Made by a program: the position numbers and the translations under genes. This document shows positions 20 through 33,600 of a stretch of 64,000 nt of DNA, in pieces. The notes beneath the pieces are model-generated. The model saw nothing but the letters and a program-made list of their open reading frames with translations, did not search any database and was not told where the DNA came from. The stretch is from Ectocarpus siliculosus (Eukaryota > Sar > Phaeophyceae > Ectocarpales > Ectocarpaceae). Positions within the stretch are counted from its first letter, which is position 1. Each line of letters opens with the position of its first letter. The DNA lies in NCBI GenBank assembly GCA_000310025.1, contig FN649744.1, forward strand, positions 1,193,845 to 1,257,844, in the 5' to 3' direction.

Positions 20-2880
20 GTACAACAACGTCGTCGACGATTCAGCACGCGCGCTCTCTGGAAACACCAAGAACACCCAACAGAGCGGCCCCGCCGCCAC
101 CCACCCCTCATTGATGCCCGGCGCCGACAGGATGCGTTCCAGTCCAACGACGTCGCCCATCGCGTTGTGCGCGTCTGGCATTTCGTAGCCGTACAGGTGC
201 TCGAACACCCCTGAGAGAGCAGAGGCGTTATCGCAGGGAAAAAGTGACCGGGTGAAGCAGACAAACAGCAAAAGGACAGGGCAATGGGGTGTCAGTACTG
301 CACGCGCAAAATCCATGCTCATGTAGAAATAAAAATGTCTCAAACTTCGAGCACTGAATCAGGCACCTTTGTTGGCCTACAAATCAGTCACATCACCTCA
401 TCACCTGCGCGACAGGCCCAGAAAATGAAGTCCTACACCCAAGCCCTCCTCCCTACAGCAATCCCAATCGATTTGCGACGGCGGCAAAGCCAACTAGCCA
501 CCAAGTCGCATCCTTGCCCAGGTCAGTAGAATTTTTGGTATCCAGTCGGGGCGTGTCAACGTGTGCGTGGTCACCGCCTACTTGCTTGCTCGGGCACGAT
601 ATACCGACCACAAGACTTGGTCTAGGCTGCGCTTGCAAGCATAGCAATATACCACGGTTGGAAGGGGGCTGGGCAAAACGAAGAACCAGGAAACGGCCGT
701 GACGCAAACTAACCAAACCCCAAACTATCGCACATCACAACCACGTCCCCGCTTCCCCGGGTCGTTCTCTCACCCCCGAGCTTGAAATTCTTGGGCCTCG
801 TCGGCATGTGAAAGTCAGAGGCTTTTTGTCTCCACAAGCTGCTCTCCTTCAAGCACCTCAGGGAGTCAACGATGCACACGACTCCCATGTCCTGGCCCAT
901 CATGAACCTTCAAGGCGGCCAAGCAAAACAACAGAAGCGCGGGGTTTCTACTAATACCGACAAGGAGAAGAGGAAGAGTGCAAGCACGCACCGCGAACTC
1001 ACCCGGTGCACGAAAGGGGAAAAAAACAACCCGAGGACAAGCTATGTTTCTTTCTAGGCATGCATAAAAACAGCACTCGATGCCCTGCCGAGCGCAAACG
1101 AACACCTGTCGTGGTCGGCCAACAACAACAACAACAAAAAATCCCCGACTATGTTACTCCCCTGGCTGCCAGCCTGACCGCACCACCCCGAAGCGCCATC
1201 CACAACGCCGTCCAAAATGACCTTTAACCCCAACCAGCATAGCCCAGCAGCCCCCGAAAAACCGCCCACACCTGCTGAAGCCGCATCGCGACACCTCTTC
1301 CTTGAGGAACTTGTGGTCGAACTGGGCGTTGTGGGCAACGAAGACGACGCCGCCCTCGCCCCTGCCCTCCGCTTGCTCTTCGGCCACGACCCCCGACAGC
1401 CACGCCGCGAACTCCGGCCACACTTGGGGGAACGGGCGCGCGCCGTTGGCGGCCAGGATCTCCGGCGTGATCCCCGTAATCTCTGTCCGAAAGACACACA
1501 GGGTTTGCCGTTTGGGAACACGCCGCGTTCGTGGTCATGCGGTGACGCAGAGACAGTAACGCTTGCCATAAACGGAGTATTTGCGGTGAGGGAGACGGTT
1601 AACGCTTTACCAACCACGTAGATGCTTACCAAAAACGGAGATTTTGCCGCACGGAACACAGAGATAAGCGTTGTCGAGGGCACGCCGTGAGGTAGACAGC
1701 AGTAACGCTCACCATAAACGGAGGTTTTGCGGTATGGAACACCACAGAAACACGCGTCATCGAGGGAATGCCGTGGGGTAGACAACAGTAACGCCTACAA
1801 TACGATAACTCAGAGAAAGCTGGAGCGTGCTACCTTTCTCCTGATTATACGGAACTCTCGCGGCAGCAAGCAAGCTGGCGTGTCCTGCGAGACAGAACTC
1901 TTGCAAGACCAAAGCTGGCGCGTGTTTGCTCTCGCCTGCTACACAGCCACGGCGACGCACCGCGCAGCTCCGGCGTTGGATCAGCGACGATGAGAGGCCC
2001 CGTCATTATATTAAGAGAGCTTGCCACCACACACACCCCACGCCAGGTAGGCCTTAGAATCACGCCTACACAGCGGCAGCCCAAAAAACACCAAAATATG
2101 TCACAGCAGGGCGTACCTCGGACTCTGGGAGGCACCCCCACTGCCCCCGGGTCGACGAACTCCGCGAACGAGTGCCTAGGATTCTCGCTGCCCAAGACCT
2201 GCAACGGACAGACAGGTGGCGGCGTCGGCGGGGGGGGGGGCGCAGGCGTCGGCGGGGGGGTTGGTTGACGCCCTCTTGGTATGCACACGTCCAGGTCGGC
2301 CAAGAAAACACGAGGGTGAGGAACACTCCTTGGCTTCACACTGGTGAGAGGAAACAATATTCAGGTGGATAGTATACACAGCATTACGGAGCTCGATCAA
2401 GTAGTGAGCTTGGTCACACAACAAGCTGGACTTTCGGGCCGGAACACGTCCCTTTACTACGCCCCACGAGTCACAAAAACATCGCGTTTAAGTTGTGTGC
2501 GCACAGCAGTCGCACGCCTGGTTCGAGCTTTGTTTTGAGACGAGGCGGCTCTGACCGCCCTTAGGGCCGCCATCGGTGCAACGCTGAAACTCTCGGCCTT
2601 CCTCGCCCAAGGGCCACGACGGTGACCTAGGGCATCCCGTCGGTTTGTCGGCATTTTTCACCCCGAAACAAGCGCTACGTACGGGCTCTCCGTGGAAGCA
2701 GCACGGAGCCACTGAATCGACCGGCGTCCATGGTGCAATACCGCAGAAAGAGAGCCGTTTCTCTCGACACAACGCTGCGCACTGCGAACCTTCGCCGCGA
2801 GCTGAATGACCCGGTCTTCCTTAGCCCGGAGCCCCGTCGTCTCGACATCGACCACGACTACCGTGTGCGTCCCCTCCGAC
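20..2880 (-). other. DEDDh (DnaQ/PolC epsilon-like) exonuclease domain of the RecG fusion
   Basis: This is the C-terminal part of the preceding gene, spread over five exons. Exo I is [20 protein letters not shown] at the end of the long exon (2790-3810). Then come [18 protein letters not shown] (2198-2117), [15 protein letters not shown] and Exo [17 protein letters not shown] (1482-1272), [15 protein letters not shown] and PKNFKLGG (907-774), and Exo [21 protein letters not shown] (210-20). The catalytic D, E, D, H and D expected of the DEDDh family are all present, and the histidine sits five residues before the last aspartate, as in DnaQ. Known family role: removal of nucleotides from single-stranded 3' ends, for example proofreading. 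In this protein it could trim 3' ends at forks remodelled by the helicase; that is inference. After residue [10 protein letters not shown] the frame meets a TAC|GTAAGC donor near position 20, so the end of the protein may lie beyond the window. Confidence 0.9.
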
Positions 2881-5800
2881 AAGTCCGCCCGGCGGATAAT
2901 CGCCACGCCCTCCCCCCTCGATGCACCTCCGTCAGCTCCCACCGGAGGCCCCGTCGGCGCCACCTCTCCTGAAGACCTTCTCTCGTGCTGCTGCTGCTGC
3001 CGCCCTGCCGGCTGCAAACGCGGCGGCGGCGGCGGGGGCGGGGGCGCGAAAGAGAACCCCGAGAGATACTCATCTTCCTCGTCCTGGCCCTCCATCATCT
3101 CCGCGTACTCCGAGGCCGACTTCTCCAAGAAGTCCGCCTCGTCGTCGAAGTACACCGCCGCGGGCACCGCGAGCTCCGGCCCCGGTTCTTTGCCACTGCT
3201 GCCCGGGCCCGCAGTCATCCGCGAGCCCGACACCCCCACCGCCGCCGTCGCCTCCGCCTCCGCTCTGGCTGCGAAGTCGGGGGCGGAGGAGGACGACGCG
3301 GGGGGGGCGTCAGCAGCGGGGGTGCTGGTGTTGAGGCTTTCCACATCATCAGGTGTTGCTGCCGCAACCGGGAACGACTGTGGAAGTTCCGTCGCTCGTT
3401 GGGGGGCGTGTTCCTTTGCCTCGCGCTCTCTCGCCGCCGCTCCTGCCCGGTCCGCGTCCCCGCCTGCCGCCACGCCGGCGGCGTCGCCGTCCGCCCCGCC
3501 TGGAGGGGGCGTTCTGGACGCGAAGCCGCTCAGCAGAGCCTTCGCATCGGCGCCCAGCCCGCAGAGCACCAGCAGCAGCCCGAGGCTCTCCGGCCGGCCT
3601 CTCTCCTCATCATAGTCAGCACCGGCACCCCCCTCTTTCAAAGCCACGGTGCCCCCCACTCGCGGAGCCCCCGAAGCGGCGGCTTCCTCGGCATCGGCGG
3701 CGGCGGCGGCGGCGGCGCCTCGAGGCGTCCAGCTCTCTACGAGACGGCGGGCGCGCTTGCTGGCGTGCTCGGCGAGGGACCCCTGTCGGGCGAGGTCGGC
3801 CACCTTGAACCTGTCGGGGGTCGCAGTTAGTAATCATCGCGCCGAGAGGGGTGTTGTTGTCATTGTCGTTAGGGAAAACGAGTGGTGAACCTTTTGGTCG
3901 CAGTTATCATCGCGACGAGGGATGTCGGTGTTTGTCATTGTAGGGAAACGGGCGGGGGGGGGAAAGAGGAGGGGGCCAACAGGACACCCTATAATAGGCG
4001 GAGCCGCCACAATTCGAAAGATAGCCATGACGTCACATCCTACTTTCGTGCTTCACAGATCAACCCTCGCCAACTTCAATCGGATTCGATGCGCCCATGC
4101 CCCAGCGGAGGACGGTAAACAGGCCTGGCCGCGAACAAGCATACGCGCAGCGACACTTCAAAGTCTGCGGCGGAGGGTTCGTAGCACGTCGCTTTGCGAG
4201 GAGCAAAAACGAGTTACCATTTAGGCTGCTGTATCCAACAACAACAACTTTGTAAAAAAAAAAATGCGTCAAGATAAAAAAAAAATATATATATATGACA
4301 CCTTCTTCGTGGGCGACAGACACGGCAGTTTACTTCATATACCGTAGGTGACGCAAGATACCACACCCCCTGCACCGACTGTCCAAGCTCGAGTACTCCG
4401 CGATGAAACAAAAAGGATGTTTACAACAAACCATACGGTTTCGGAAAGCTCTCGACGAGCCGGTTCCAACGCTGACATTCTCGACGCGGCCGCTCTTTCT
4501 GTGACTGTGGATTAATTGAGCTTTGGTCCAGGGGGGGGGGGTGATATCTTACGTCATTAATATATCGTGTACTCACTTTCCCTCGATGTACCCCTTCTGC
4601 CGCATCCCGAGCACCTCCCCGGGGCCCCTGAGGGCCAGATCCCTCTCCGCCAACAGAAACCCATCGCGAGTCTTTCGGACGGCCTTGAGCCTCTCCGTGG
4701 CATCGTTGCCTACGTCTGGCCCGTACAGCAGGATGCAGTGGGAGGTTTGCCTCTTGTCCTGCGACGGGTCCTCCTGGTCATGGGCGGGGAAGGCACGTGA
4801 TCGTCGCCATCGGCATAAGGAATACAGTAGTGCGGGGGATCGAGGCAAGCAACGGCATATCAAGTGTACATTTAGCTTTTACAAGACAAATATTTTACCC
4901 AAAATCTTTGGGAAATACAAAACGAAGATATTGCTTTTGTAACAGCTCAATTTTAAGCACACAAAAACATGCATTGTTGAAAACACTTGTTTTTTGCGCC
5001 GATCGCAAACCAAACTGCGTGGTGTGTATGGGAGGCTGGCGATCAAAATTCCCAGCACTTGGCGTACGTGCGCTCACTGCGGCGGAACAGCGGGGGGCCA
5101 CCGCTGCGGCAACTCACTGCGGGAGCACACACAGTCATCATTTACAAGCAAATGGAAGCATCGTCACAATCATCACAACAACGGACGGTGGGGATCCGTT
5201 CCAACTACATAGATATTATAGTACCACAGCTTCATGTTTCCTCCCACTTCAGTTGAACCACTGCTGTTGAAACCCCGTTGTCCGGGGAAACGTGCGAGTC
5301 ATCACGCACTTTCATATCTCACTTGCTCCACAGCCAAGAGACTGCCGGTGAGAAAAGGGCAGGGTGGTGTCGGGAAACAAAATCTCGCCGACAGCTTCCC
5401 CTTGCGCGTATTTGTCGGTTACCGCACCATGTGGACTTATCGGTTCGGGCTTTCTTCACTCATCCGAGGGTGCGTGGGCGATGACTGTTCACACTTTCAC
5501 GGTTTACATACCACACCCAAAAAAAAAAAACAAATGCCGTGTGGCGTTGATGGTGGTAGTCGCGGAACACCCGGACCGACTGCCCTCCCGGTCCCCGTTC
5601 GCAGCAGTGGCACAGTGGCACCTACCTCGGGGGAAGCAGGCTGCTGCAAAGATCCCGTCGGTGCTGTCGTTGATCGCTCCCGCTTCCCCCGGTCGGTCCT
5701 TCCGAGCCTGCCGCGGAGCTGGTGCAGCTGGCTGAGACCGAACATCTCGGCGTTTTCGACCACGCACACCCCTGCCCGGGGGACGTCGACGCCGACCTTG

Positions 5801-8800
5801 AGACACAAGCGGCGATCAGCAAGCAAGGGCAGCAGCAGTGCGACGGAGGAGGGGAGGAGAAATTTCCGTCGGCGGCCGGATCAATATCTTGCGGCAGGAT
5901 GAAACGTACTGTGAAGCCAACGCGGTGGTATCTCAAAGCGACCTTTAGTCATCGCCGAAAACACAAGGGGGATCAATGATGTCGATGAAACAAATCACCA
6001 AGAATCGTAGCACGTTCAGCCTGGAACAAACGCCGCCAATGTACCGCTACCCTGCACGCTCTTGATCTCCAGCCTGCATCAAGCCTAGCTTTTCCCCCAT
6101 CACTGCCGCTCGCATCATCGCCGTCCGTAGGCGGATCCCTGCGCAACTCCACCTGACGAATCTCACGCTCACCTCGATGATGCTGGTCGACACCAACACG
6201 CGGAGCCCCTTGCCCTTCTCCCCGCCGGAGAACTCGGAGAGGCGTTTGTTCTTCTCGGCCGAGGTCATCTTGCCGTGGAGGAGGGTCACCCTGCCGTCAG
6301 TCGGACACACAACACAAAAAGAAGACACATCATTGGATGGAAGAGACCACGCCGAATGAGCTTCTTGCGTTCTCTGATTGTTGCAAGGCGAAAAAAAAGG
6401 GGTGGGCGAAGCGCACATTGCCGGAGGATGGGTGGTCAAGCATGCATGGATTTTTCGTATTTGCTGGCACGTGGGTTCAGCTTTCTAGACGCCGTTTTTT
6501 TAATGTGCCGAGTACGGGGGGGAGGGAGGGAGGGAGGGAGGGAGAGGGAGGGAGGGTGCTACGCGAGGAAACCTGTTGGAGAGAAGATGAATGCGTGAGG
6601 TTCTTTCGAGCAGCATCTGTATCACCACAAACTTGATGCACTGAAACGTGTGGGATTTTACACACAAAAGAGAGTGAAAGCCAAGGGGCTCGTGGACCGC
6701 GGCGACACCTATAGCAGCTCTCACACCGACGCTGACGCTCTGTCAACTGCAGGCGACGTTCGGTCGCAAGAGCAACGTCGAAGGTATTTCGCAGCAAACA
6801 CCATCATCGACAACAACAACAAAAACAACAACACTGCCAACAAAAACGACAACAGAGCAACAGCAACAACATCATCATCATTGCCTACAACGACAACAAC
6901 AACAACAACAACAACAACGATGGACAACGAAGACGGAATGCGGAGGCCACACGACGGGGCTCACCTATCCTCTCCGAGCTCCTTCACGAGCGCATCGTAC
7001 CGCTCGGTGGCCGAAGCGAGGTGCTGTCTAGTGCTAGACTCAGACTTGTTGATTTTGTGGGAGAACCCAAAACACCTGGGTCCGCGGGTGGCCGGGGGGG
7101 GGGGGGGGGGGCGAGATGCAACCATGTTCATCCACGGGGGCTTTACGCTTCAAACAGGGTGTGGCCGAGAGGAAATGAAAAGCTGGGCTAGCACTTGTTT
7201 TGGGGCAAGGCTTGGCGATGGATACGCTGAGGCCGGCATACGCGTGGCAGAGCAGACCAAATACACAAATTCAATCACAAATTCAATCTCTTGTAGAGAG
7301 GGTGATAGCTTCAACGGAAGCGGGCGCCGAAAACAACTGACACAATCACCGAAAAAAGAAAAAAGGAAGAGTGTTTGATGAGGGAGCTTTGCAAGGGGGG
7401 GCCGCAGTCAAAACAAGGGGGATGATGGCGACACTACCCAGGGATGGCGTGAAACCTTTTCTTCGCGGCTATTGTATAATTTCAAGCCCAAGGGCGCAGG
7501 CAGCTTGCTGCATCAATCCTTCTCATGTGACGATTTTCGCCTTGTGAAACACAACTAACACAGGGGCTTCAACCAGCTAGGCAGGGTCGGACCTACAGAG
7601 GGGTGAGCACGAAGCACTCGCCCTCCCCCATCCCCACTGCCCTCCAACCCACAACGCACCTTGTCATCGGTGTCTTCCCGACCCTTGAGCCTGTCCATGA
7701 CTTCCTTCGCCTTGGCCACAGGGATGAGGGTCGTCTCGATGTTCGCGGTGCCTCGCGGCATCTCTCGGATCTGGCTGATCTGTTTCGCCGCCCAATAGGC
7801 GAGCGGGGGGGTTTTGACGAGCAAGCGGTCAAGGCCAAGCAGTTACCTCGTACCACTAACTTTGGCGGATAAGTTTACAAAGTTTGGCGTAAGTTAGCAC
7901 TGACGTTTATCCCATTCGGAGTGCGGGCACGGCCGCCATAACCCGTCCGCGCCTTGTGAAAGGAGGGTATGGGCTGCATGGTTGAACTGACTGCTGGAAT
8001 TTCTAGACTCCGTTGCCTCCGCCCGACGGTCCCCTCAACCGACTAAATAGCCGCCGGCACCTCCAGCACAAAACGACTCGCCTAAGTGCCTCAATCTTGA
8101 GAGACGGTGACGAGAACTTCGATCCCCCCCCCCCCCCGGTACCCCTCTATCAACATGCCTTCTGCACGTCCAGCACAAACTGACCCATTCTCCATTCCTC
8201 AATTCTTAAGAAGTGACGGGCACTTCGAGACCCCCATCCGCACCCCTCAATCAACATACCTCTGGCATGTCGAGCACCACATGACCCACCTCCATGCCTC
8301 ACTTTTGAGAGATGATGACGGGCTCTTCGAGACCACCATTCCCCCCCCCGGTACCCCTCTATCAACATGCCTCCTGCACGTCCAGTACAAACTGACCCAT
8401 CGCCATTCCTCAATTTTTAGAGAGATTGTGACGAGCAAATCGAGACCCCCCCCCCACCCCCCATGCGACTCGCCAAATACCTCACGGCGCTTCGCGCTTG
8501 GTGATGTGAGAGCCTGGTCCGGTGAGAACCCGGCGTGCTCCGTCCCGGCTTTGTAGGGATGCGAGGTCAATGGTCAAACGACTACGGCATGCACGACTAT
8601 GAGTACACCCCCCCCCCCACCCCCCCTCGCACCCCTCAAATAACATGCCTCCGGCACGTCCAGCATAACAGGACCCACCTCCATGTCGCCAAAGAGGGCC
8701 AACGTTAAGCTCCTCGGGATGGGGGTAGCCGAGAGATAGAGCACGTGCTGCGCAAAGCCTGCGGTCGACGAAACGCAAGACGCGTTATGGGGAGGGGCAA

Positions 8801-11800
8801 AGGTCGGGGAGCGGGCACGTAAGGGGTTTGCTGCGAGAAGGAGGCGTTCCTTCTTCAGGGAGGGTGTGAGAAAACCTCAATTTTCACAAAACGAGCTTGG
8901 TAGCTCGTGTCCGTGCCTGCGCAAGGTGATCGACAGCGGTGTGGTAAAACATCGACAGAAACCTCGAGGAGCGGTGGGGATGGTGGCGCACGCCAAAATC
9001 AACCTTGCTCGAGAGAAGGACCCAACCGCAACGTAGCCGGCAGTGGTATATTCGGGAAAAGGAACACCCTCTCACGGCGCACGGTTAATGCCGTGTGCGG
9101 TTGGTGTCGGCGCGGGATGCGTGAAGAAATAAACGCCTCTGAAAGTGCGGGAAAATGCTAACGTCCGACTCTCACCCCTGCGGTTGTCCACAGCAAGGAT
9201 GTACGGAACAGAACGGAAACGAACAAATGAGGGCGACAAGAGCGGTGACTCAAGGATAACAGCGAGAGGCTCACCAGTCAACTTGTCCCTCTGCTCCACC
9301 CCGAACCGCTGCTCCTCGTCCACTACGGCCAGGCCGAGATCTCGGAAAGCCGTAGACGCGCTCGTCAGCACCGCGTGAGTCGCCACCAGAATGTCCACCT
9401 GCAGGGGGGCCACCAAACACCGGCACGGCGGTAACTCAGGAAAGTCTACGAGTTTTTTTCCGGTGGTCCCGGTACTAGCGGTGATTACCGGCATACCATT
9501 CGGTAGTACCGGGGGGACCGCCGAAGGCGGCACCGCCGAAGGCGGCACCGCCGAAACACGAAAAAACGCTTACCGCCGCAAAAGCACCGGCGTGTTTGCA
9601 ATACCGCCACGCTGGTGACCTCCCACAAAACGGTACCGACGACAGCCCTGGTAACAAGGGTTACATGTTGACAAGGTTTTTGACCAAGATCCTCGTAGGT
9701 TGTGAGAGCCGTCAACACAAAAAATAATGCACTCTCCCCAATCACTGGGGAGGAAAAAAATATATAACACGAACACGCGGCATGGAGGGACCAAGCGAAA
9801 CCATAACGGGCGTTGTGGTTGGTGTACCCACGCGAAGGTACCCGTGGGTAAGGGGGCTCTGTCACAGCCGCGTGCCCCCCCTCCCCCTGCCTCTCCAGTA
9901 ATCTCGCTCATCCGCAAGATACTAAGTGCAGCGAGTTCGTCTTACAAACACAACCCGAACGACCCAACCGCACGTACCTCCCCACTCTTGACGTCGTTCA
10001 GCAGCTGCTGCCTCGCCTTCCCCTTAATGCTGCCCGTCAGCAGCTCCACCCTCAGGTTCCCCTTTCCATCCGGCCGCTCGATGCCCTCGGCCATCGACCT
10101 CAGAGTCTGGGAGCCCAAAAGTTCGTCGCAAAATTAAGTGGGTCTTGCGTTCAAGAGTTCGAGTGAAGCCTACCAAAAACGTTTCAAAACCCTTTTTTAT
10201 TGTTGCTAAACAGCACGAAAATCACCGGGTGTTTGTCGCAAAAAAAAAGTGGGCCTTGCGCGCGCCGCACGAGCACGGTCGAAACCTCCCGCAAAACATT
10301 TGCAAGTACTCTCTTGTTGATGCTGCTGCTACTGCCGCCGCTTGTCTTGGCGTGGACGAATGCCTTTGACCATCTGCCCAGCAGTGGCATGCCCTCACTG
10401 CTGTTGTCACCCCCCGCTTGCAAAGTTAACGACCAGTGCGGCCCGAAGGCAAGGGAGAACATTGCGACTACACGGTCTCTGCGACGGTTCCAAACCGAAT
10501 AAAACCCTTCCAAGCCCTGCTACGAGACAGAAGACGTCCTGGAACCGAACTACCGCATACACGTGGTCAAAACCCCCACCAGGGTATATATGACTTAGGC
10601 GACGCTGAGTCAGGAGTCACACGTTGTAGGGGCTAGAAAAGACTCTTTCAATGCTTCAACACACCCAAGGCTCTAGGCCACCCCGAGCACAAACCAGAGA
10701 AGCTGGTCGCCGCAGAAGCGGCCGTGACAAACTGGCGTGATTTCATCGCTCAGCCGGAAATGTACCGCGGTCGATGCCAACAACAACAAAAAAAATACAC
10801 GCACACACATACATACACACAACACACACCAACAGACTACAAGGCGAGCAAACCTCGATTGACCACATCGTCAGTAGCAGAACGAACGTACAAGCACATA
10901 TACCTGTAGGTGTTGCACCGTGAGCACCTCGGTCGGGGCGAGCATGCACGACTGCGACCCCTGTCCGGCGGCCCTGAGCATCGCCAGGAAGGCCACCGCG
11001 GTCTTCCCCGACCCCACGTCGCCCTGCAGCAGCCGAAACATCCGGAGGCTGCTGCAGCTGCCGCTGCCCTCCATGTCCTTCAGGACCTCGTCGAGAGCTG
11101 CAAGGTCGGCCGGGGCGGGAAGCATAAGAGTGACGGTGGGGGGGGGGGGGGGGGGGGGGGGGGGAACCTTTNNNNNNNNNNNNNNNNNNNNNNNNNNNNN
11201 NNNNNNNNNNNNNNNNNNNNNNNNNNNNNNNNNNNNNNNNNNNNNNGCGGGAAGCATAAGAGTGACGGTGGGGGGGGGGGGATACTCATGTTTTGCATGC
11301 CTTAGTTGTTAGAGCGTTCACAACGCGCCCTCGCGAGGACGCATGGAGCATTTGTTCCAACGAGAACGATCCCCGATGGACAATCGGTCCTTCTTACTTT
11401 TGCCAAAGGTGACCCAAAAATGGGGGGAGGCGGTTATGGTCCGGGGTATATGTCCGGCCAGCACAGAGAGATACGCTCGCTGGCAAAGCAAGGCGGCAAT
11501 CGACCGAACCAAGCGCTGACCCCATGTGTTGTGTGTTGGGATGGATACGGCAGGCAGTTACGGCAGGAGTGGCAAAGGGATGGCCTGTTGCCTTCGATTC
11601 TTTGGTATCGCACGAGCGCCACGCCAAAAAGACGACACACTTCTCGCGGAGCAACAGACGCACGGAGAGAAGACTTGTTTCTAGGCGAAAAGACAGCACC
11701 AGAAGCGGAGAAAACGCGCACTCGAACCAAGCAACCCCCGGCCGCACCTCTGAAACATGCCCCACCCCCTCCGTTTGGCACAGCACACGCAAGGATGATG

Positions 11801-14800
11801 ACCGCCTTCTGGTTCATCCTGGTGAAAGGTAGCCTGGGCCGGCGAAAACCCGGCATATCGCTCCGTCCCGGTGTTGCAGGGATGTGAGGTCAATGGTCCC
11901 ACGACCACGGCATGCTTTTACACGAGTACACCCCACACGCGGTCAATGGTCTAACAACTAAACTCATGCCGAACTGAGTACCCCCCCCCCCCCCTCCCCC
12001 CCCGTAAGCTGTTCACTTTATCGACGCACCTTTGTTTTGACTCGAAGTGAGGTCAAACGGTAATCGCCGCCGTCCCTCTTCCACCAATGCCGCTTCCCCC
12101 CGACCCTCGCCATACTCGCCAGCAGCAGCAGCCGCAGAGCCGTCTCCCTGATCCCCTCTATGGCCGCTAACGCCGCCACCAATGCCGCGAGTTCTGGCGT
12201 CTCCTGAGCGCGAGAACGATCTGGCTGGCGAGGAGCTCGTCGTACGCCAGGCGAGATCGGGTGGCACCGGAAGGTCTCAAGTCTTCCTGTTTTGTTGCAA
12301 AAAAAAAATCGCGGCGATATTTTGGTGTGTGGGTGTAGACTAGAAACTGCAAAGGCAGCAACAGCAGTAGCCGCAGCGGCAGCGGCGGCAAAGAAAAGTA
12401 GCGTCCAGCGAGCAAAGAGGTTCGATAGCACGAGAGGAGGGAGGTGCTACCACAAAAAGGGCGGCGGAGAGAGGGGTGTGTGTTTCGTCAGAGATTCTCC
12501 CGCAAAGCGCCCTAGGGGGGGAGGATCAACCAAGCCATCCACAAAACACCCCCCGCTGCTCCTGAAGCCATCTTCTCATCAACCGGTGTTCAGGATCGAT
12601 CCAAAGAACGCTTCGCTCGGGGCTATCTCGCAGAAATGGTGATCGGCGCGCTATGCTACACTCACTGCTGTAGGTGACATTACGTAAGATATCACGCTCC
12701 CTGGATTGGTTCTGCAAAGCTCGACTACACCACACGACGAAGAGGATGCCACGAGTCAACTGATACGTTTTCGGAAAGCTGCCGTTCCACCGCCGCCATT
12801 TTCGGCACCACGTCTCTCGCTCTCTCTATGCCCTGGAGTAATCGATCTTTGAAAAATCGGCCCAAAGGGGGGGGGGGGGGGGGTGATATCTTACGCCACG
12901 TACTCCGGCAGACATCCGACAAGACACGCCGTGTGTTAAGCAGAGGCACAGAGAGAGGGGGGGGCGTCGCGCACCTCCTGTTGAGGGCTGTGGGCCGCCG
13001 ATAGAGCTTCCCGAAGGCTTGGCCAACCGTGCTCCCGCATCGTTTCCTGGTCTATCCACTCCGGCGGAAACTGCGTCACCCCCTCCAGCTGGTCGAGCGC
13101 CAGGGCGATGACCGAGCGGAGGCTGGACCCGCTCAGACCGGCGGTGAGGGGGTACGTGGGCTGGATAACTAACACCTGAGGGTACATGGGTTGGGTGGGG
13201 GGGCGCGTGCTCATGTTTTGCATTGTTAGACCGTTGAGCACGCGTCCTCGAGAGGACGGAGTACTGCTGTTGCCGCAGGACCGATTGCCGATGGCCAATC
13301 GTTCCTTCCTACTTGTGCCAAAGGTGGGGGAGATCATCGGCAGCGACGGTGTGGGAAGGGGCAGGAGTGATTGAAAACAGTACGGGTTCGGTGGGAAGGG
13401 GGCTAGATGAAGAGTGTGGGGGGGGGAAGGGGGGCAGGACTAAAAAACGTCGCTCATGGGCTCGATGTTTTGGATTCCTTGCCTAGTGGACCGTCAAAAG
13501 GGTCAAAGTGACCCCGTTCCCGTAAGCACCGCAAAAAAACAACCAACCCCTGCACGGCGCCAACGCTTCATCTGCGGTGTTGCAACGTGGCTCTTGGTAG
13601 CAGAGAGCATGCACCAAACGGAAGGTATGCTCGTATCACCTGGCACATGCCAAGCTTGGACTCAAGAGACGGAAATCTAACCTTCGAGGCCACCCGCCCC
13701 AACGCGTTTCGTTTCGGGAATCCCCCCCCCACACGTATTCGCGCCGCTGGTCCTGACCCCCCTTCTCGACACCCAGCAACGACGTGGCCGTGGCCTGCCT
13801 CCCGAACTGTCCCCACACGATAATCCCCTTGCAGAACCCCAGGTTCTGTGCCCCAACCATGCAGTACACCATCCCGATCCCAAACTATTGTAGAGCAAGG
13901 TCCGGGGGGTTGTGGCTGCTACCAAGAAGACATGGCTCTACACACAAGAGCCAGAACGTGGCCCTCCCTCTAAAAACGCGACTCAATCGACTCATAACAC
14001 TTTCAGTTCCTAAAGCTCATCGACGCCCGTGTGCAACTCCGGAAATGCGCACTAATTGTAACACTTTCAGCTTCTAAAGCTCATCGACACCCGTGTTCAA
14101 ACTCCGGAAAGACGTGCTCCTTGATGGTTGGATCCCTCCCGAGAGGGCCGTGCTGCTCCCTTCCTGGCTCACCTTTTCAAGGTCGGCGGCAGGGGCTACG
14201 ACCTCTGGCGAATTCATCACCAGGGCTCCGCTGTACTTGTCCATGGTGACCTTCCCACTCACCACCTTGGTCTCCCCGGGCTCGTAGTTCTTGCACAGCC
14301 AGGACCTGCGTGTTCAGATTGGCCCAAGGCATGGACAGCAGAGGTGGTGGCTACGGCATAAGAGAGGGTTCGGACATGTCAACAACGCTCTCTTAAATCC
14401 AGTTTATCTTGAAAACCGTACTGCTGTACAATATGTGAAGTTGTCAAGGTCGGGACAAGCCAAAAACACCCTCTTAAAACTCGATTTTCTCTTGAATACT
14501 CTTTAACCCGCTACTGCACAAGTTTCGTAAAGATTCCGACCAACAGCACGTTTGCGTCCGGTTAGGTGGGTCCGGTTGGGTGGCCAATTCGAGGATTTCC
14601 CAACCAATACCGCGCGAAGAAGGATGAACACAGGGTTAAGTGGGGGGGGGGGAGGGGGCATTGCCGGGCCGGACTGAGAGGCGGCTGTCACAGGAGAAAT
14701 CCAGTTTTACCGTCTGGTCATGATCGTCCCTCACACGATGCCTGGATAAACACAACACCAACAAGCTCACACGTCCACGCCCATGTGGAAACTTCCGGTA

Positions 14801-16958
14801 GAATTTACCTAGTGTTGTCCACCGCCAACCCAAAACCGCATCAAAAACGAAACTTCTCCTAGGTGGGCGGATAAGGGGAGGATAGCTCTACTCCGGGGTT
14901 GTCTGCGGTGGACGCACGGAACAAACTACCTGAAGCCGGGTGAAAATGCTTCTCTTGCTCTCACCCGCCAAACATGACGATGTCTATCTTATCCTCCACC
15001 ACGTCAACGCAATGGACGCGTGTGATCCGAGGCGACCTTTTGCGGGGGTCGCTCTGCACCTTCACCACCTGCGCGCGGCGCAAAGCAAGCAAACCAGCCA
15101 ACCACGGGGCGGCGCAAAAGACAAAAACAGCAACCCAGAAACAACGTGAAACAACGAAGCGGCCGCACCACGCGAACGGGGAGAGACGAGGGGAACAAGA
15201 CTGGGACATATCACGGCGAGGAAGAGGAGCGTCGTGGCAACACAAGTGTCAGGCACCCAAGCCATAGTGTGGCGTCCCTGCTCGATTGATACAGCAGCGA
15301 ATGCCGACAGTGACCTACAGCTGCGGTGGCCACAGGTTCCCACCCCACGTCTGCGCGGGTGGAAACCATGGACGAGATTGACCACTTGCCACGCCACGCC
15401 AAAAACCCTACCATTCACTTCCACGAAAGATATAATAGGACGTTCGTCCGAAAGAGGGTACTCAACAGAAGCGCACGAGGAAAAAAAAAACATGATGAAG
15501 ACGTCTAGCAGAAGTAAGGGGTCGGTGTGCCAGACGGGACGACGGGCGTCACCTTGAGCAACAAGGTGGCAACCTCTCCCTCCACGAGATTCGCCACGCG
15601 GCTCGTTTCCCTCCTGTCCACCATCCCCGTCGGAAGGTGCCAGAGCAGATCCGCCACGGTCGTCACACCTGTTTGCCCGAGCGCGTTGGCCGCGCGGAGG
15701 CGGGCAAAGAAAAACAACGCGTAGCGGGTGGGAGAACGTTGGAGCAGCAGCGGATGGAAGAAGAGAGATGTGCGCTCGGGCAGCGGAGTGGAAAACGGAG
15801 CTACAGCAGACTCTACGCGGATACGAGTACGGACATGCACGCAACGACCGGGCAACCATCAGAGGACTTGGGGCAGTCAACAGCGCCGACACCACCAACA
15901 TTGCAGTAACTCCGCGATCGATCCCCCCTCCCCCTCCCATTTCACCTAGCTTGGCCAGCTGCTCGGCCTTCCGCGGCCCTACCCCCTTCAGGGCATCCTC
16001 AGGCGGGCTCGACAGGTAAGACAGGGTCTCCGCGTACGCGTACGACTCGTCCACGACGGCACCCTTCCCCCCCCGCCGCGCAGCAGCTACCCCCGTAGCA
16101 GCCTTCCTGGCTTGCCTGGGACCGCTGCCCTTCTTCCCGCCTCTCGTGGCCGACGTCCCGTCCCCCGTCCCCTTGTCGGCGAAATCATCGGAGGCGTTAT
16201 TGCCGCTGCTGCTGGTTTCTCGTCGCAATTCTCTTGCTGCTACCGTGCTGGTGGACGAGCCTCGTGTGGGGGCGCCGCTGCCGACGGCTGGCGCGCGCGA
16301 GAAGGGGAGAGAGTGGCCGCGAACGGGTGAAAAACACAGAGTCTGACACTTGGTGGGCAGTAAGGGGTGGATTAAGACACACGGCGCGTGCTCCCCCGAC
16401 TTGGAGTACGTGGTTTCGAGGTCACAGGACTATTTAGAACCTGGTTCACGATGCGCAAGTGCTGGGATGCAATACCGTTACGTGCTTCCGCACAGTCTCG
16501 TGGGGAGGCCGGGCCGGGGGTGTTGGTGGTGCTGGTTAGCCTCGAGTGGTGCAAAACACCAAACGTTGCTAGGGTACCGGCGGGCTTCGCCAAACCTGGC
16601 GTGCGGTGCATAAAAGCAATCTTTGCCGGGCGTGTCAACTGAGTTTGTAACGCACTGAGCGGCTTTCTCGCCACACGTCGAGCAGGGGACCCATCGTAAG
16701 CGCGGGAGCGGCTTCTTCTCTCTACACGTCGAACAAGCGGTAACGTCGGCAAACGAGCGGTTGGGTTCACGTTTGCTCACTTTGCAGGCGAGAGAGGCCG
16801 AAGTTTGGCCTCGTGAGCACCCGCCGAGCCGCGGCCGTCCTCCAGGCATGCAGCCCAAGCATGCTGCCTGCTCCTACGAAAGACGCCCGGGATGATGTTG
16901 TGGAAGCAGCAGTAGTAGCGCTGCTGTTCGGTTGCTGATTGCGTGAAGAGAGGGCCAT
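20..16958 (-). CDS. recG: RecG-type DNA helicase fused to a DEDDh 3'-5' exonuclease (21 exons found, 3' end may lie outside window)
   Basis: RecG remodels stalled replication forks and Holliday junctions. Exons in order (minus strand): 16958-16781 (tentative targeting peptide), 16239-15946 (HhH-like [15 protein letters not shown]), 15668-15553 (ends in ATLLLK), 15068-14965 and 14305-14173 (OB-fold wedge), 13160-12975 (PTYPLTAGL), 12286 to about 12180 ([11 protein letters not shown]), 11097-10904 (Walker A GDVGSGKT), 10106-9978 ([13 protein letters not shown]), 9398-9275 ([13 protein letters not shown]), 8758-8679 ([17 protein letters not shown]), 7770-7660, 7075-6965, 6290-6173 (TLLHGKM, STSIIEV), 5796-5626 ([15 protein letters not shown]), 4773-4577 ([18 protein letters not shown]), 3810-2790 ([10 protein letters not shown], linker, VDVETTGL), 2198-2117, 1482-1272, 907-774, 210 to about 20. 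Phases agree at all junctions except two defects listed separately. About 1,330 residues. Splicing is predicted, not measured; the start exon is the least certain. Confidence 0.88.
4348..4556 (+). mobile_element. MITE-like element, copy 1 (in a RecG intron)
   Basis: About 210 bases beginning GTGACGCAAGATACCAC and ending GTGATATCTTACGTCA, so the ends are imperfect inverted repeats (consensus GTGACGYAAGATAYCAC). The internal part shares blocks with the other three copies: CTCGA.TACTCC, a CGGTTTCGGAAAGCT-like block, and a G run just before the right end. No coding capacity. It lies between the RecG exons at 4577 and 3810. Confidence 0.7.
6519..6556. repeat. GGGA-type G-rich repeat (RecG intron)
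   Basis: Consecutive GGGA units on the plus strand (TCCC on the gene strand) within the intron between exons 6965 and 6290. Such runs can fold into G-quadruplexes; that is general knowledge, not shown here. Confidence 0.75.
6965..7075 (-). other. Apparent 1-nt frameshift in a RecG helicase exon
   Basis: This exon corresponds to the RecG segment between the ATPase and helicase lobes. From its acceptor it reads VFWVLP, then hits a stop after a few codons. The neighbouring frame, starting within the same ten bases (about 7053-7060), reads [20 protein letters not shown], which is the expected continuation (E. coli RecG has YWVCTLIEESE here). The exon is 111 nt long, but its flanking phases need 110 nt, so exactly one extra base would explain both observations. 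All neighbouring exons are intact, so a sequencing error or allelic indel is as likely as real gene damage. Confidence 0.7.
8050..8690. repeat. Tandem minisatellite (units of about 100 bp) at a RecG exon-intron border
   Basis: At least four degenerate units, near 8053, 8168, 8264 and 8379, share TCCAGCACAAACTGACCCA-, CATTCCTCAATT- and GACGGGC.CTTCGAGACC-like blocks, separated by C runs. A further partial unit (CGTCCAGCATAACAGGACCC) overlaps the real splice donor of the RecG exon 8758-8679. The block ACCCACCTCCATG, the donor junction on the opposite strand, recurs near 8284. Confidence 0.65.
8505..8615. repeat. Dispersed repeat, copy A (RecG intron)
   Basis: Shares the order GAGAACCCGG, CTCCGTCCCGG, GGGATG.GAGGTCAATGGT and ACGGCATGC, then GAGTACACCCC, with 11822-11935. 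Unrelated to any coding exon. Confidence 0.6.
11172..11246. other. Assembly gap (75 N)
   Basis: A run of 75 N lies inside a RecG intron. The sequence GCGGGAAGCATAAGAGTGAC followed by a G run is present on both sides (from about 11115 and from 11247), which suggests the same segment was read twice and not merged, or a local tandem repeat. The true length and content are unknown. Confidence 0.95.
11285..11430. repeat. Dispersed repeat, copy C (RecG intron)
   Basis: Begins with a G run and CATGTTTTGCATG. It then shares GTTAGAGCGTT, CGCCCTCGCGAGGACG, CCGATGGACAATCGGTCCTT and TGCCAAAGGTG with 13195-13340. Confidence 0.6.
11822..11935. repeat. Dispersed repeat, copy B (RecG intron)
   Basis: Second copy of the segment at 8505-8615 (GAAAACCCGG, CTCCGTCCCGG, GGGATGTGAGGTCAATGGTC, ACGGCATGC, GAGTACACCCC). 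Confidence 0.6.
12671..12898 (+). mobile_element. MITE-like element, copy 2 (in a RecG intron)
   Basis: Begins near TACGTAAGATATCACGCTCC and ends GTGATATCTTACGCCACG, with the shared internal blocks CTCGACTACACCACACGACG, CGTTTTCGGAAAGCT and AGTAATCGATCTTTGAAAAA, then a long G run before the right end. Same family and orientation as the copy at 4.35 kb. Confidence 0.7.
13195..13340. repeat. Dispersed repeat, copy D (RecG intron)
   Basis: Second copy of the segment at 11285-11430: a G run, CATGTTTTGCATTGTTAGACC, GCGTCCTCGAGAGGACG, GCCGATGGCCAATCG and TGCCAAAGGTG. It lies just upstream, in gene orientation, of the exon starting at 13160. Confidence 0.6.
13995..14115. repeat. Tandem duplication, about 60 bp, two units (RecG intron)
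   Basis: CACTTTCAG..CCTAAAGCTCATCGAC.CCCGTGT..AACTCCGGAAA occurs twice in succession (from about 14000 and about 14060) with a few base changes. Confidence 0.65.
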
Positions 16959-17696: not shown

Positions 17697-18934
17697 TGCC
17701 TCGTTTCGGACGACGGGAAAAAAAAGGGGACCTTGTGGTGGCCGCACCCCACCGACGACGTCGGCAGTTACCGACACAAACGCCTACGGCATGTCTCGGT
17801 CACGTACACGGCGGGTTTCTACAGAGAGAGAGAGAGAGAGGCGAGAAGATGCATTGGTTCCGGGGACCCGAGACAACCCACGACGGCCGTCGCTCGCGGC
17901 TCGCGGAGTTTCTTTTCATCGTTGAGGGCGGCACCGCCGTTGTTGCATCCAACCCGACCGCATACAGTACATAGCGGCCGACACGAGTGCCCAACGGCAG
18001 TATCAACCCACCAACTTTCTTTTTAATCCTGGCTTTCGGAGTACGGTCCACCAGCGGACGACAGACAAGCGGTAGCCCTTGCTTGGCCTAGAGCAACAAC
18101 TGGTATACGTTTTGCTCGTAAATGGATCCCACGACGACTCAACGCTGCTCCTGGGTGCGACTCGCATGTTTAAACCGCTTGAATCTTCATTTTCTGCACT
18201 GCTGAGTTTCGGCTCTAGAATATTCACGGACTACTATATGGTGGACGCCACGGAAAGCTCTTACCTGGTTGCACACAAGTTGGTGGGATTTCCGTCCTCC
18301 TTCTCGGCCCCCGAAGCGCGAGCAGGTGCCTAGGGCACCTTCGCCCAACAGCGACAGCAGCAGCGCAAGCAATGCACCTCTCGCAGCAGCAGCAGTCCTC
18401 ATCAATTTACTGGCAGGCACACACGGTCCTGACAACAGCAACTGCCCCCAGAAGCTAAGTCCCGCAACGCTTTGTGTCTCGATAAACTGCGCACGGGAGA
18501 TACAGTGGACCTGCCGTGGCTGTGTTGCTCTTGTTGCTACCGCATTGTACTGCATGGGTGGGCTTGGTCCTGAGGGGGTCTGTGGAAAATATTTCACTTT
18601 GTATCGTCTCTTCGAATGTTGCATGATTCTACGGAGCTCAGCGAAATGTAACATGATTCGGCGAGCAGGCCACTCATTTCATCGTTGTCACATGCTCTTC
18701 ACCAGCCACGACTGCTGTACGACTGCTGCGCTTTGTGACGACGATAAACTTGGAGCACAACCTAGAATTTAGTAAGATCCGGGGATTGATAGCAGCTTGC
18801 GAAAAGGCCAGCACGGGTATATATCCCTGCTAAACATTCTACTCACCGAGTTCGCGAACAACAGCAACGAAGGTCAGCTACGCCGGGGGTCACGAGGTCA
18901 GCTGAGCTGGAGTTGGGGCATGCCCCCCGCTGAC

Positions 18935-27600: not shown

Positions 27601-30600
27601 GTTTGCCCACGGCCCATGCTTCGTAGTGTTGTGGGTTGTGGAAATACTGTTTTCATTCACAAATTGGCCGGCCAAGTTTACCGTCGCTTTGATACTACTG
27701 TGATGCTTGATTTGCAGCAGCGTAGCGAGACGCCGCACCATTCCCCATTCCGTGTGATGCATTCCGTACCCGTTCCGTGCATGTGGATCGTTTTTTTACG
27801 CCGATACAGGCGTTACCCCAGTTGTGCAGGCGGCAAGGAGCGGCCAGGCGGAGCTCCTTATGACCATGGCCAACAGCAACCAGGCGTGGAAGAGCAGGTA
27901 CCATGTATGAAGGCAGGAGGTGTATGCCGCGAACCGCTTGAGGTATTTTGTATTTTGGTTGTTGCGCTGGCGTATGAAAGGACGTGGGCGCAATGGGCTA
28001 CCCTTCGTGTTCCTCCAGGATCATGACCGGCACGAGTATATCGAGTGCCAGACGCCACGCCGCGCATGTGCACCGCTTCGTCTGGGCATCGTTCTGGCTT
28101 TTGCCGGTAGGCGCGCAATGTTGTGCAAGACATTATGGACTGGTGTGCAATCCTTTCTAATGCCCGATGAAGTAAGAATAGGCCATCGCCCTCTCCCGTG
28201 TATCCCAACGGCGAGAGTCTATCTCCGACCCTCCCCTTTGTTTGCTGATTCTATTGCACACCTCCTGTACTGCCCCCAGCAGTCGAGATGATTCCGCGCC
28301 GTATTCGATGGTTGCCATGAGCGACCCAGCGAGTAGGGCTCGAGGAAATGCCACCGGGAAACGACGAGCCCTGCAGTCTCCGATGAACCCTGGGTCGAGC
28401 AACAGCATCAGAGCGAATGGAGGAAAGGGGAATGGCGTCCCCGTTTCGGCTCTTTCCCCATTGCACGAAGCTGCCGCTTCGGGCCAACCGGAAACGTTGT
28501 CGCTGTTGCTGCAACTCGGCGTTTCGTTGGAGGAGAGAGATGCGGCGGCGGGAGTCGGGGGGGACACCCCGCTCGGGAGAGCGGTTAGGGCGGGGCAGAT
28601 AGACTGTGCCAAGCTCTTGCTGGACGCTGGAGCAATGGTCGGTAGAGAGAATGCACGAGGGTAAGTTGAGGCAGGCTGGTGGGCTATAAGTGGGGGAGGC
28701 ATCGGGTGTTTTGGGTTTGCGGTTTGGATGCGACATGTTCACTGGCGTGGATGGTTGACAATGCTCTGATAATCTCAATAGCGATGGCTTTTACACCAAA
28801 CGAGGCGCCACCCGGCTCGTTTTCTCAATCTTTTCCCACTCGAATGAGTAGGAGGGAAACCAGCATGGCGAGTAAAATACGTTTCACGAGATTTTAAAAC
28901 TTGGCCTCATTGTATAATCCCTCTTTCTTGCTGCTTTTCGATGTGCTGGTTGGTCTCTGTGGGACATGCACAGAGAAACGCCGTTGGTGGTCGCGATCAG
29001 GGCCGGACAAGCCTCGGCAGTGGAACTCCTCTCTCAACACGGCGCGCCTCTTGACGGAGGAAAGTCGAACGGGAGGCTAACTGGCGCAGACGGGCGAGCT
29101 CCAACGGGGCCACGGGAAAAGATGATGGCTCGAAGGTTGGGTTGTGGCACTATTTTTACGTATCGCGGCGCATGAATGCAGAATGCAAAATATTCGTGGA
29201 CGCAGCCGTCGTTGCCGAGTTCCAACATGCGCACAAGCTGGTTCACGGAAATGATCCCACATTTCTCAACATCAACACCTCACGCCGCGGTTTTCGGAGG
29301 TATCCTCCGACATTTTGCACAAAAAGTACTGTTGTAGGGAAATCGCAAAACGCTGTCGTGACACGCCTTTTAGTTTCATCTGTTGCCACCGAGTTTCTGG
29401 GGTCCCAGAGGTCCCGCAGGTCGTATACCCTTCCCAGACCCCCGGAAATCCGGCAACAAAACCAAAAAGTAGCGCTTCACATTTACTCATTTTTCATGTG
29501 CGCAGAGTTTCTGGGTCTGACTCTGAAAGATATCCTGAGATTTGGCGATTGTATGTGAGTATGCAACAAATGGGTAGATTGTTCGTCGGGAAGCTTTCAC
29601 TGAAGTTTAGATCATTTCCGTTGATGGAATTGTACATAAGCAGGTCTGCATTCCTTTGTTCCCTTGAGTGCTTCATGGCAGCGAGTGTGTTCGGTGAAAA
29701 TCTGCGTTCCATGCCGGCATTGGATATGTGTGGCGGAGAATTGCTCTTCCGGGCCTAAAACTCTTATCAAAACTCCAATCATCATGCCGCTAGCCAAGCG
29801 TCACCCCCAACCGCCGGGCGCCTTTTTTCCATGCGCAGGAGAGTGGAGCCGCTTGAGCTTGCTCTGCGTGAGGGACAGCTTGCATGTGCCGCAGCGCTGA
29901 TCGAGGGTGGAGCACGCATCAATGAGCGGACGTTGCGGGCAGTAAAATTGGAACCTTCGGGCGCCGGGGCTACTGAGGACAAGAGGTGATACATGCAAGA
30001 CTCGGTCAGCATAATCTTGGGTCAATCCTTAGAATTGTGTGTGAATTCTGCTTACAGCGAGCTATCCTTGCTCCTTCATTTAGTTCTTGACCGTCATATC
30101 TGTGCACTGTCTACGCCTGGTGAGTAGAACAGCTTAGACCGAGAAGGATTCTGCGATACACGCAATGCGACATCGCCGACCTCCACCCAGGCAGAAAATT
30201 TCCTCGACCCATTCCAATGCATTTCTAAATGCGTCCTGCTTCGCGGTGCCTGACATGGTTGGAATCAGTGTCGCTCAAGGAAGACAAGTAATTTACGCCG
30301 GAACCAGCCCAGGCGAAAGCCACCGTGGCGGCGGTTGGAGCGGGAATGGCGGAGCGGGAAGCGCCACTACCCCTGCGATCACACTTCCTGTACAGGCGGA
30401 CATACTCAAGAGACTGTCCCCCGAGGTGTCTGAGATCTCCGACTCAGCTCCTCCTAATGGGGGTGGCCTCGAGGTCGACCCTGAGTACGACTGCGACATG
30501 TTGGACAGGGAGTCTGTGGACATCCGCGAAATGTGGCGAGAAAAAGACTTGGCACGTCGGGAGCCTAGCGCAGGCGGCTCGAAAGAGACGGCGGCGGAGG

Positions 30601-33600
30601 GAGAAGCGGCCACGAGGCCGGGACGTCCAGCGGAATACGTAGGGGGGCTCAGGCCCGCCCTCGGTGAGTGCGACATCGAGCTCGTTTTGGAAGACGGGTC
30701 GCGTCTGCCAGCCCATTCGTGTCTTCTGGCGGCGTTCAGCGGAACCTTCTGCGACCTGTTCCTTCGCCGGCACGGCCGCTGCTCTCGCCGCACATGTCCA
30801 GCAGCCCGCGGCGGCAGTTCTTCAAAGCGACAACCTGTACCTGGAGCATCGGAATTCGCCGCGGCGGCTGCCGATAGGCTTGAGATGGACCAACGCACAC
30901 GCTCGCGCGACGTACATCACCTCCTAGCCGGACACGACCCACCTGGTCAAGGACGAGGCGCGGCCTCAGAGCATCAACGCCAGACTTCACCATCAATCTC
31001 GGAAGCGGCGGTGGCTGCGGCGGCCTTTGCTGCCACCGCAACAGTGGAGAATGCGGCCTGGTGGGCACCGGCCGTCATAGACTGGGGGCCCGAAAGGGGG
31101 GAAGTTTCCGTAAGATTTTGGGGTGCGGGTACCATGTCGGCGGTAGTCAAGCACGTCTACACCGGCCAACCGCCATCGAACATGCACGCGGACGGCCTGG
31201 GGCGACTGCTCGTCGCTTCGGTATCGTTGAGGATGAACCGATTGATCCGGCAGGTGGAGCACCTCTTGTCTGCCAGGCTGTCGCCGCAGAAGGGGAAAGC
31301 TCGGTCTCTTCAGCACGACGAAGCGGCGAGGTTGCTGAGGGCGGCTCGCGTCCTGCGGGCAACAGACTTGGAGAAGCGGTGCACGCTGTACATGCAAGCC
31401 AACGGCGTGTTCCCTGCAGTCATGAAGGTGGATGGGGGATATCGTCTCGCGTTTTGCTTTTTCTCATCGTGTTCTAACCATACCCCAGGTTACAGTTAAC
31501 TTTTTCCGTGTGGTGTTGCGCAGAAGGACCAAACCCTGTTTTCGCGTTGAGGTTTATCGCAACTCGTTGCATTGCATGTACCGGGGTGCAAGTTAAAGAA
31601 TTATCATTGTGCACCACCCGTCTACCCCGTCTAACCTCGTCGGTTACATGTTGTACACGTCGCAGTTGCGCCGGGAGCTGGTCGTCCCTTCTCTCAACAC
31701 GTCGGATGTGACAAGGGGCTTGGCTCGGTTGAGCAACAGCGGGTATCTGGGATCGGGCCCTGCGCACGCGTGGTCTTCATCTGGGGCGGTGTCCACGTTT
31801 TCTGCTTCCGCTACAGTAGCGGCTGCCAAGCGAGCAGTCGACTTGTCACTGCGCAAGCGAGCTGTGGACTTTGATCAGCTGGTGCCTCTCCTGCTAGACA
31901 CGATCCGGTGAGGGTTGCGTGCTGCCTTGGCAACCACACTTGTTTTCCAAGACCATACTTCTACTGCGCCCTGTTTTTTTTTATGCGTAATCCTCGAAGA
32001 ACTAGTGAAGGTTCATCACATGGTACAACGCCTTTCTCAACTTTTAGCATTACACCCGGTGCATCCCATATAGGTGTACATCGACGCTTTCTATTGGGCG
32101 CCAGGAGCGCGCGGTTCTTCTCACGGCAGCCTTGGCCGACGCGTGTCCTCAAGAATCTCCACGCTGCCAGAACGAGGCGCCCGACCCACTCGCTGCTCCG
32201 CAGCGGTGGCGTCCGATTCCACCAAAGCTCCGAGGTTGCTGCGATGCGGTTCGTTGCGACGGGGACAGGTGGAACGCTGACCGACCTGCTGTTCCGCTCG
32301 TGTCGAACGTCTCCGCGTTTTCCCACGGTATGGGCTGGCTCCTCAGGACCGGAACGGTAGCCGACGCTGTCTTGGTCCTTCCCGGGCAACCTAGCCACTC
32401 ACACGCAATGCCGCCGGCGACGGTGATCGACAACGGGGAGGAGGACGAGAAGAACGACTCAGGAAATCGAGAGAGTCTCAGTCCGGGTGGCAGGGTTGGT
32501 GTACAGTCCAGCGAGCGGGATGCGCACTCAGCCGATAGCGCGGTTGATTCTCCCGCCAGAGTGTCGTCAGGAGGGCTCGTGAAGGACGAAGGCTCAGGAC
32601 GGCCGATGGCCGATTCGCCCAAAGTGGAACGGACCACGAAGGATCAACTTGAGAACAGCCAATTCCTGGCGCATTCCATGGTGCTGGCCTCTAGATCGGA
32701 AAAGTTCGCAGCAATGCTACGTTTTGTGCAACGACAAGACGGCGATAGCCGAACCTACGCAGACAGCGTCGACGGCAGGAGCACGGACGATGATTTTTCC
32801 ACCGATGCTGACATACCTGAGGGCGAACACAGGAATAGAGAGGAATCTCCATGGGGTGATGTGGAGCAAGGAGAACCTGTTGGTCACAACCAAGGCGAAG
32901 CTGTGGACAATAGTGGCCAAGATGGGGAGGTTTCGCAGCTCCCTCGAAGTGACAGCCGCCGACCCTCGCCACCCAGCGACCGGAGATGCCACCGTCGCCG
33001 GCGTCCCCGACGTAATCCGGCGCCAAGAGAAATAGAACTCCACTCTCCACTTCTCACCCCGCAGTCTCTCGGCCTATTTCTGGAGTTTTTGTACACTGGC
33101 GTGCTGGACACGTCGCTGTCCACGAGGGAGTTGTCCGAGCTCGCCCTCATCGCGGACGAATATCTCGTGCCCGACCTCACTCGGCAGGCAGAAGCTCTTC
33201 TGGTGGAGTGCTTGGTGAGACGTGGCGATGTGCGATACTCTTTGCATTTCACTTTATTGATGCTCGAGTCACTTTTTACACTGTAGTCTGGTGCCCGGAT
33301 GACCTTCGTGCTACCGTCCCTGCACCTCATGAACGAGCTTTTTTATTTGGATTACGGCTGCAATTTCTTTGGTTTTTGGTTCCTTCTGCATTCCCCTCAC
33401 TTCCCCTTCTCTGTGATGCAAGCACGGCACCCTGTCATGCTTAACCCTACCTTACGTCCTTTTCCCCCCTTCCTAGGCCATCCTTGCGGCGTGATGTGGT
33501 CGCGGATTTGTAGTTTTGCTACAGCAGTTGTCTTGACCCCTGCTGTTCTTCGAAATCCTAGCGATGACCCTCCGCAATCACCTCGAAAAACGCAGGCGTC

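Follow-up and report, generated by a model that had tools for sequence, protein, structure and literature searches.

Helicases joined to 3'-5' exonucleases in one polypeptide are already known as such. The vertebrate RecQ protein WRN carries a fork helicase and a DEDD-type 3'-5' exonuclease in one chain, and differs from the protein described here in being RecQ and not RecG, in having its exonuclease at the N-terminus and in being nuclear. Bacillus DinG also combines a helicase-like part with a DEDD exonuclease in one chain; its exonuclease is N-terminal and its helicase XPD/DinG-like, not RecG. In E. coli, RecG and ExoI are products of separate genes, work on the bacterial chromosome and both handle 3' flaps. 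According to PMC6393302, the 3' flaps formed at fork fusion are thought to be cleared by 3' exonucleases, chiefly ExoI, or alternatively to be turned into 5' flaps by RecG, which is essential in cells without ExoI, ExoVII and SbcCD; in the same work the intermediates of RecG and of the exonucleases differ in part. Plant RECG (RECG1) is a nuclear-encoded organelle protein that restrains ectopic or repeat recombination of organelle DNA (PMC4358946 and PMC9129000), and we likened our protein to it by description, not by sequence. The exonucleases PolC and DnaQ/epsilon, unlike the one described here, are attached to or partnered with polymerases.

In the brown alga Ectocarpus we analysed a gene that almost certainly encodes RecG and a DEDDh exonuclease in one chain, the exonuclease being C-terminal. 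The encoded protein is like bacterial RecG in wedge, motor and domain-3 C-end; bacterial RecG ends there, whereas the fusion continues into the exonuclease. The D-x-E-T-T/S-G exonuclease motif was absent from the RecG frames of the 80 bacterial loci listed (median 707 codons, longest 920). Such a join looks undescribed: we did not meet it in the published literature as covered by the listed titles and starts of abstracts, subscription papers and preprints lying outside this search, and the two NCBI names seen on fusion proteins were "unnamed" and "hypothetical".

The gene is on the minus strand and runs from about position 18402 to beyond base 1 of the window (the whole analysed stretch of 64,000 nucleotides, from contig C19; the assembly has 189 Mb). 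Twenty-two exons lie within the window, and the last exon of the gene is outside it, at C19:1193644-1193480 of the same genome. We set the exons, all on the minus strand, from splice sites, phase and comparison with the database proteins P0001, P0002 and P0003. The first exon (18265..18402) has a hydrophobic, signal-peptide-like start, MRTAAAARGALLALLLSLLGEGALG..., and a gtaaga donor, and was placed by tblastn with the N-terminus of P0002 (E 6e-8), splice sites, phase and hydrophobicity. It splices in phase to a Ser/Thr/Arg-rich exon (16781..16934; same query, E 3e-9), which contains a conserved inner Met, also present in P0003, as a possible second start. The sequence-only reading had placed the start near 16958 (MALSSRN); this is probably wrong, since the P0002 N-terminus, from Scytosiphon, has its counterpart in exon 18402-18265, in phase to 16934.

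The RecG wedge begins in exon 15946..16287, which gave a RecG_wedge match, and continues through exons 15553..15668, 14965..15068 and 14173..14305 to exon 12975..13175, which covers the wedge end and beyond and whose last codon was extended to a gt donor. Exon 12030..12286 lies ahead of motor 1 and has a one-base frame break near 12200. Motor 1 includes exon 10904..11097, with Walker A (GDVGSGKT), a DEAD match and a run of N just upstream (near 11180-11245), and exon 9978..10106; next come exon 9275..9398, which holds a further motif, and exon 8679..8758, with motif III (SATPIPR). Exon 7660..7779 is between the motors. Motor 2 begins in exon 6965..7075, which has a second one-base frame break near 7055 and starts at about 7044 in the P0001 model, and continues in exon 6173..6290; exon 5626..5796 holds another motif. 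Exon 4577..4773 carries the RGPG motif and the beginning of the RecG domain-3 C-end, its acceptor having been moved three bases upstream by comparison with P0001. One intron of the gene contains a three-copy, 111-base tandem repeat (8135-8450).

The RecG exon ending at 4577 splices in phase to the exon starting at 3810, with agreement of donor, acceptor and phase, and this exon (2790..3810) contains, in one stop-free frame, the last residues of RecG (to RRLVESW), the whole linker of 289 residues and Exo I (DVETTG). A linker block of about 40 residues, at approximately 3035..3170, is common in the alignment to the window, P0001 and P0003 and absent from the P0002 model. Four further exons of the window encode the exonuclease, i.e. 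2117..2198, 1272..1482 (Exo II, AHNAQFD), 774..907 and 101..210 (Exo III, HNAMGD), the last of them within the window; the catalytic residues are complete, with the DxE, HNxxFD and HxxxxD motifs of DEDDh enzymes all there. The spliced protein has, in this order, RecG_wedge (PF17191, 59.4 bits against a cut-off of 23), DEAD (70.8 against 26), Helicase_C (66.1 against 23.5), RecG_dom3_C (PF19833, 37.2 against 26.8) and RNase_T (PF00929, 52.4 against 24), all above the Pfam cut-offs. Hence the splice junction, the open exon and the full set of exonuclease motifs claimed in the sequence-only reading are all borne out, and three lines of evidence (phase at the splice sites, domain scores, and the same order in 14 database proteins) argue for one gene, RecG first and DEDDh exonuclease second.

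For the helicase half, RecG models scored higher than Mfd models in all three fusion proteins scanned: 603.8 bits against 290.5 in P0003, 640.9 against 331.8 in P0004 and 462.3 against 251.1 in P0008. The RecG scores stay below the NCBIfam naming cut-offs (785, 785 and 718, respectively), which counts against the fusion RecGs, although these cut-offs are annotation thresholds for bacteria and archaea and not a defining trait of RecG. On the comparison with Mfd models, and with the wedge present, we rejected an identity with Mfd. Residues 94-766 of P0004 matched the solved RecG 1gm5 with E 4.7e-111, and 1gm5 was also the first Foldseek match of the P0004 structure model (weak on the whole, mean pLDDT 54, better in the exonuclease region); the model of P0006 (mean pLDDT 28.7) was set aside. 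RecG_dom3_C was weak in P0004 (21.5 bits) and missing from the precomputed Pfam lists of several diatom-side fusions. An identity with DinG was rejected as well, the order being RecG then exonuclease, with RecG domains instead of an XPD-like helicase; the exonuclease domains of DinG and of the fusion matched weakly.

We looked for the same order of RecG and DEDDh exonuclease in relatives by three protein searches, whose candidates were confined to 0.55-1.75 times the query length, and found it in brown algae and a diatom. The exonuclease part of the window protein gave seven matches, four of them RecG-exonuclease fusions; the exonuclease of P0004 gave 20 (five fusions, including the query) and that of P0008 gave 17 (ten, including the query). 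Altogether there were 14 distinct fusion proteins (P0001-P0004, P0008-P0011 and P0027-P0032), three of which carry species names, namely Ectocarpus sp. 6 (P0001), Scytosiphon promiscuus (P0002) and the diatom Thalassiosira profunda; over the exonuclease the window shares 99% identity with P0001 ("unnamed protein product [Ectocarpus sp. 6 AP-2014]"). P0034 has RecG and just the start of the exonuclease, the protein being cut short. By Pfam, the non-fusion matches were PolC-like (P0007, 12 from the P0004 query and six from the P0008 query), the remaining ones being P0020, P0022 and P0024 (P0004 query) plus P0005 and P0006; among the non-fusion matches PolC and DnaQ/epsilon are the nearest exonuclease domains. 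A relative with two separate genes, which the sequence-only reading had named as a refuting case, was not found among proteins within the length range, in which short stand-alone exonucleases could not show up, so the result stands for that range.

Counting P0034, there are 15 fusion rows. All 15 have the SF2 motor motifs (Walker A, DExx, SATPxPR and motif VI) and Exo I, 14 have Exo II, and 13 have Exo III and with it the full set of exonuclease motifs; the C-terminus of P0031 consists of unrelated letters. With P0002 or P0003 the window protein shares 78-81% identity in RecG, 64% in the exonuclease and 40-42% in the linker. We built one tree from RecG and one from the exonuclease, using 13 of these rows each time (all but P0031 and P0034). 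In either tree P0001-P0004 and the T. profunda group fall on opposite sides of a split with 100% bootstrap; the finer branching is not the same in the two. The division into a brown-algal and a diatom side is thus the deepest split of both part trees, for which a single fusion event before the split of brown algae and diatoms would be the simplest history.

Where algae have complex plastids, a protein that starts with a signal peptide and then a transit peptide may well be bound for the plastid. By simple residue counts, which is how we called N-termini targeting-like, a hydrophobic N-terminal stretch is present in P0008, P0010, P0028 and P0030 and not in P0003 and P0034. The fusion protein probably acts in an organelle, and the inner Met of the Arg-rich stretch could serve as a mitochondrial start. 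In moss, RECG shows dual targeting, for which the authors of PMC4358946 put forward two in-frame AUGs as one possible route; a RecG-like protein has also been reported in the apicoplast (PMC3228799). Among diatom-side fusions, P0009-P0011 and P0034 have an extra N-terminal region of 100-350 residues with a repeated pattern ending NPSSY/NPGLY...VLRN, of which P0008 has a single copy.

With moderate confidence, we propose that a targeting region, RecG, a variable linker and a DEDDh exonuclease act as one polypeptide in organellar remodelling of branched DNA and 3' trimming. Precisely, a nuclear gene would give a single chain with N-terminal targeting, RecG (wedge, two motors and C-end), linker and DEDDh 3'-5' exonuclease; the RecG half would recognise and remodel branched DNA such as stalled forks, D-loops and 3' flaps, and the tethered exonuclease would trim the 3' single-stranded ends laid bare at RecG sites, which would curb re-replication and repeat-repeat recombination. 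RecG tethered in this way would merge both E. coli 3'-flap routes, and ExoI is a DEDDh-type exonuclease as well. The E. coli flap routes and the organellar RecG of plants led us to place the proposed 3'-end trimming at organellar forks, flaps and D-loops. We infer from sequence comparison that the two halves are active and coupled, what they act on and where in the cell, and with this the single fork-processing enzyme in an organelle that the sequence-only reading had put forward. Against joint action counts the poor conservation of the linker (40-42%), and the partly distinct intermediates of RecG and exonucleases in E. coli would suggest the same by analogy.

A gene fusion is good natural evidence for the cooperation of two activities. 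Kept across the split of diatoms and brown algae, this one gives non-bacterial support to a shared site of action of RecG and 3' exonucleases; it offers a ready-made test case for their cooperation and hints at a way in which the organelle genomes of these algae may be protected. More speculatively, and in our view less likely than not, the fusion could be an ancient ochrophyte organelle enzyme equivalent to RecG and ExoI in one chain, which would clear 3' flaps where organelle forks meet and whose RecG half would later have decayed, in one lineage, to a non-catalytic platform.

That lineage would be represented by P0005 and P0006, which have the same C-terminal exonuclease (hhalign E 7.5e-42) and none of the helicase motifs. 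Their upstream parts, in a profile made from the two sequences, matched the RecG motors with a probability of 89.6% and P 1.9e-6, and ten column-shuffled controls gave P values from 0.018 to 0.79; with a profile of just two sequences, a decayed RecG upstream is likely and not certain. Since the exonuclease outlasts the helicase motifs here, the halves need not act together. This retention after apparent RecG decay, and the variable linker, are what can be said for two independent halves that are joined for targeting or level only, the exonuclease being a general organellar 3' exonuclease or proofreader. We consider this unlikely, because the join has survived on either side of the deepest tree split and the decayed RecG has not simply been shed.

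It is also rather improbable, in our judgement, that the exonuclease works mainly on RNA. RecG would then act at forks or R-loops, and the RNA strand would be degraded by the DEDDh domain, as Bacillus DinG is able to do. The B. subtilis enzyme degrades RNA in RNA-DNA hybrids as well as 3' ends at forks (PMC12525004), and the solved structures related to the exonuclease domain include RNase T; the best solved matches, however, are exodeoxyribonuclease III and PolC, which are DNA enzymes, and motif comparison is neutral as to the substrate.

The proposed joint action in Ectocarpus presupposes a working RecG half, and the two frame breaks, near 12200 and 7055, bear on it. Both fall outside the SF2 motor motifs, and P0002 and P0003 are intact at both sites. 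The P0001 model starts past the first break and, next to the second, lacks nine residues. The breaks may therefore be real features of Ectocarpus instead of mere errors, in which case its RecG half may be impaired. A RecG half in decay, like that of P0005 and P0006, in a gene which is now mainly an exonuclease would fit the two breaks and a model that avoids both; we regard it as very unlikely, given that the RecG sequence flanking the breaks is 78-81% identical to that of Scytosiphon and P0003, intact in both, and that sequence errors or unusual splicing could have produced the breaks.

A bridging of two adjacent genes by a chance open frame was rejected as next to impossible. Frames do stay open readily in G+C-rich DNA, and the strand opposite the fusion exon has two open frames of 269 and 285 codons. 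An 821-base part of exon 3810-2790 (72% G+C), on the other hand, kept its frame open in only 21 of 5000 shuffles. Independent and stronger evidence is that the same domain order recurs in 14 database proteins, that the linker block is common to the window and P0003, and that the frames of P0010 (1519 aa, contig of 4840 bases) and P0004 (1111 aa, contig of 3487 bases) nearly fill their contigs, with scarcely any space for introns.

A protein search of the genome with the fusion exonuclease matched only its own five exons, with no second copy. We based this on the protein search and not on the PF00929 genome search, which missed the exonuclease exons of the window altogether and is therefore insensitive to split genes; the latter also gave three PF00929-like stretches at C16:4448070-4461226, possibly separate exonuclease genes. 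Of the 12 matches of the RecG model in the genome, none is a full RecG other than that of this gene: five are in the gene itself, four on C33 and three in short helicase stretches, two on C14 and one at C19:40233; the best E among these three is 1.1e-8, and they cover only model positions 474-570 of 629. A second RecG at C33:1380220-1386717 was rejected, this being the gene of the transcription-repair coupling factor Mfd (410.8 bits for Mfd against at most 262.4 for the RecG models). In a tree whose rows did not include photosynthetic cyanobacteria, the fusion RecGs (14 rows, SH-aLRT 99) stood beside Alphaproteobacteria among the 80 bacterial loci listed; the node joining them is weak (79) and gives only a hint of a mitochondrial origin.

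Rfam gave no match anywhere in the window. Outside the fusion gene, the minus-strand open frame 40655-41317 matches the first part of PF00875, DNA photolyase (E 4.5e-11). Pieces of a BTB/POZ domain are in two plus-strand open frames (30138-33283 and 59710-60222), and we also noted an ankyrin-repeat exon.
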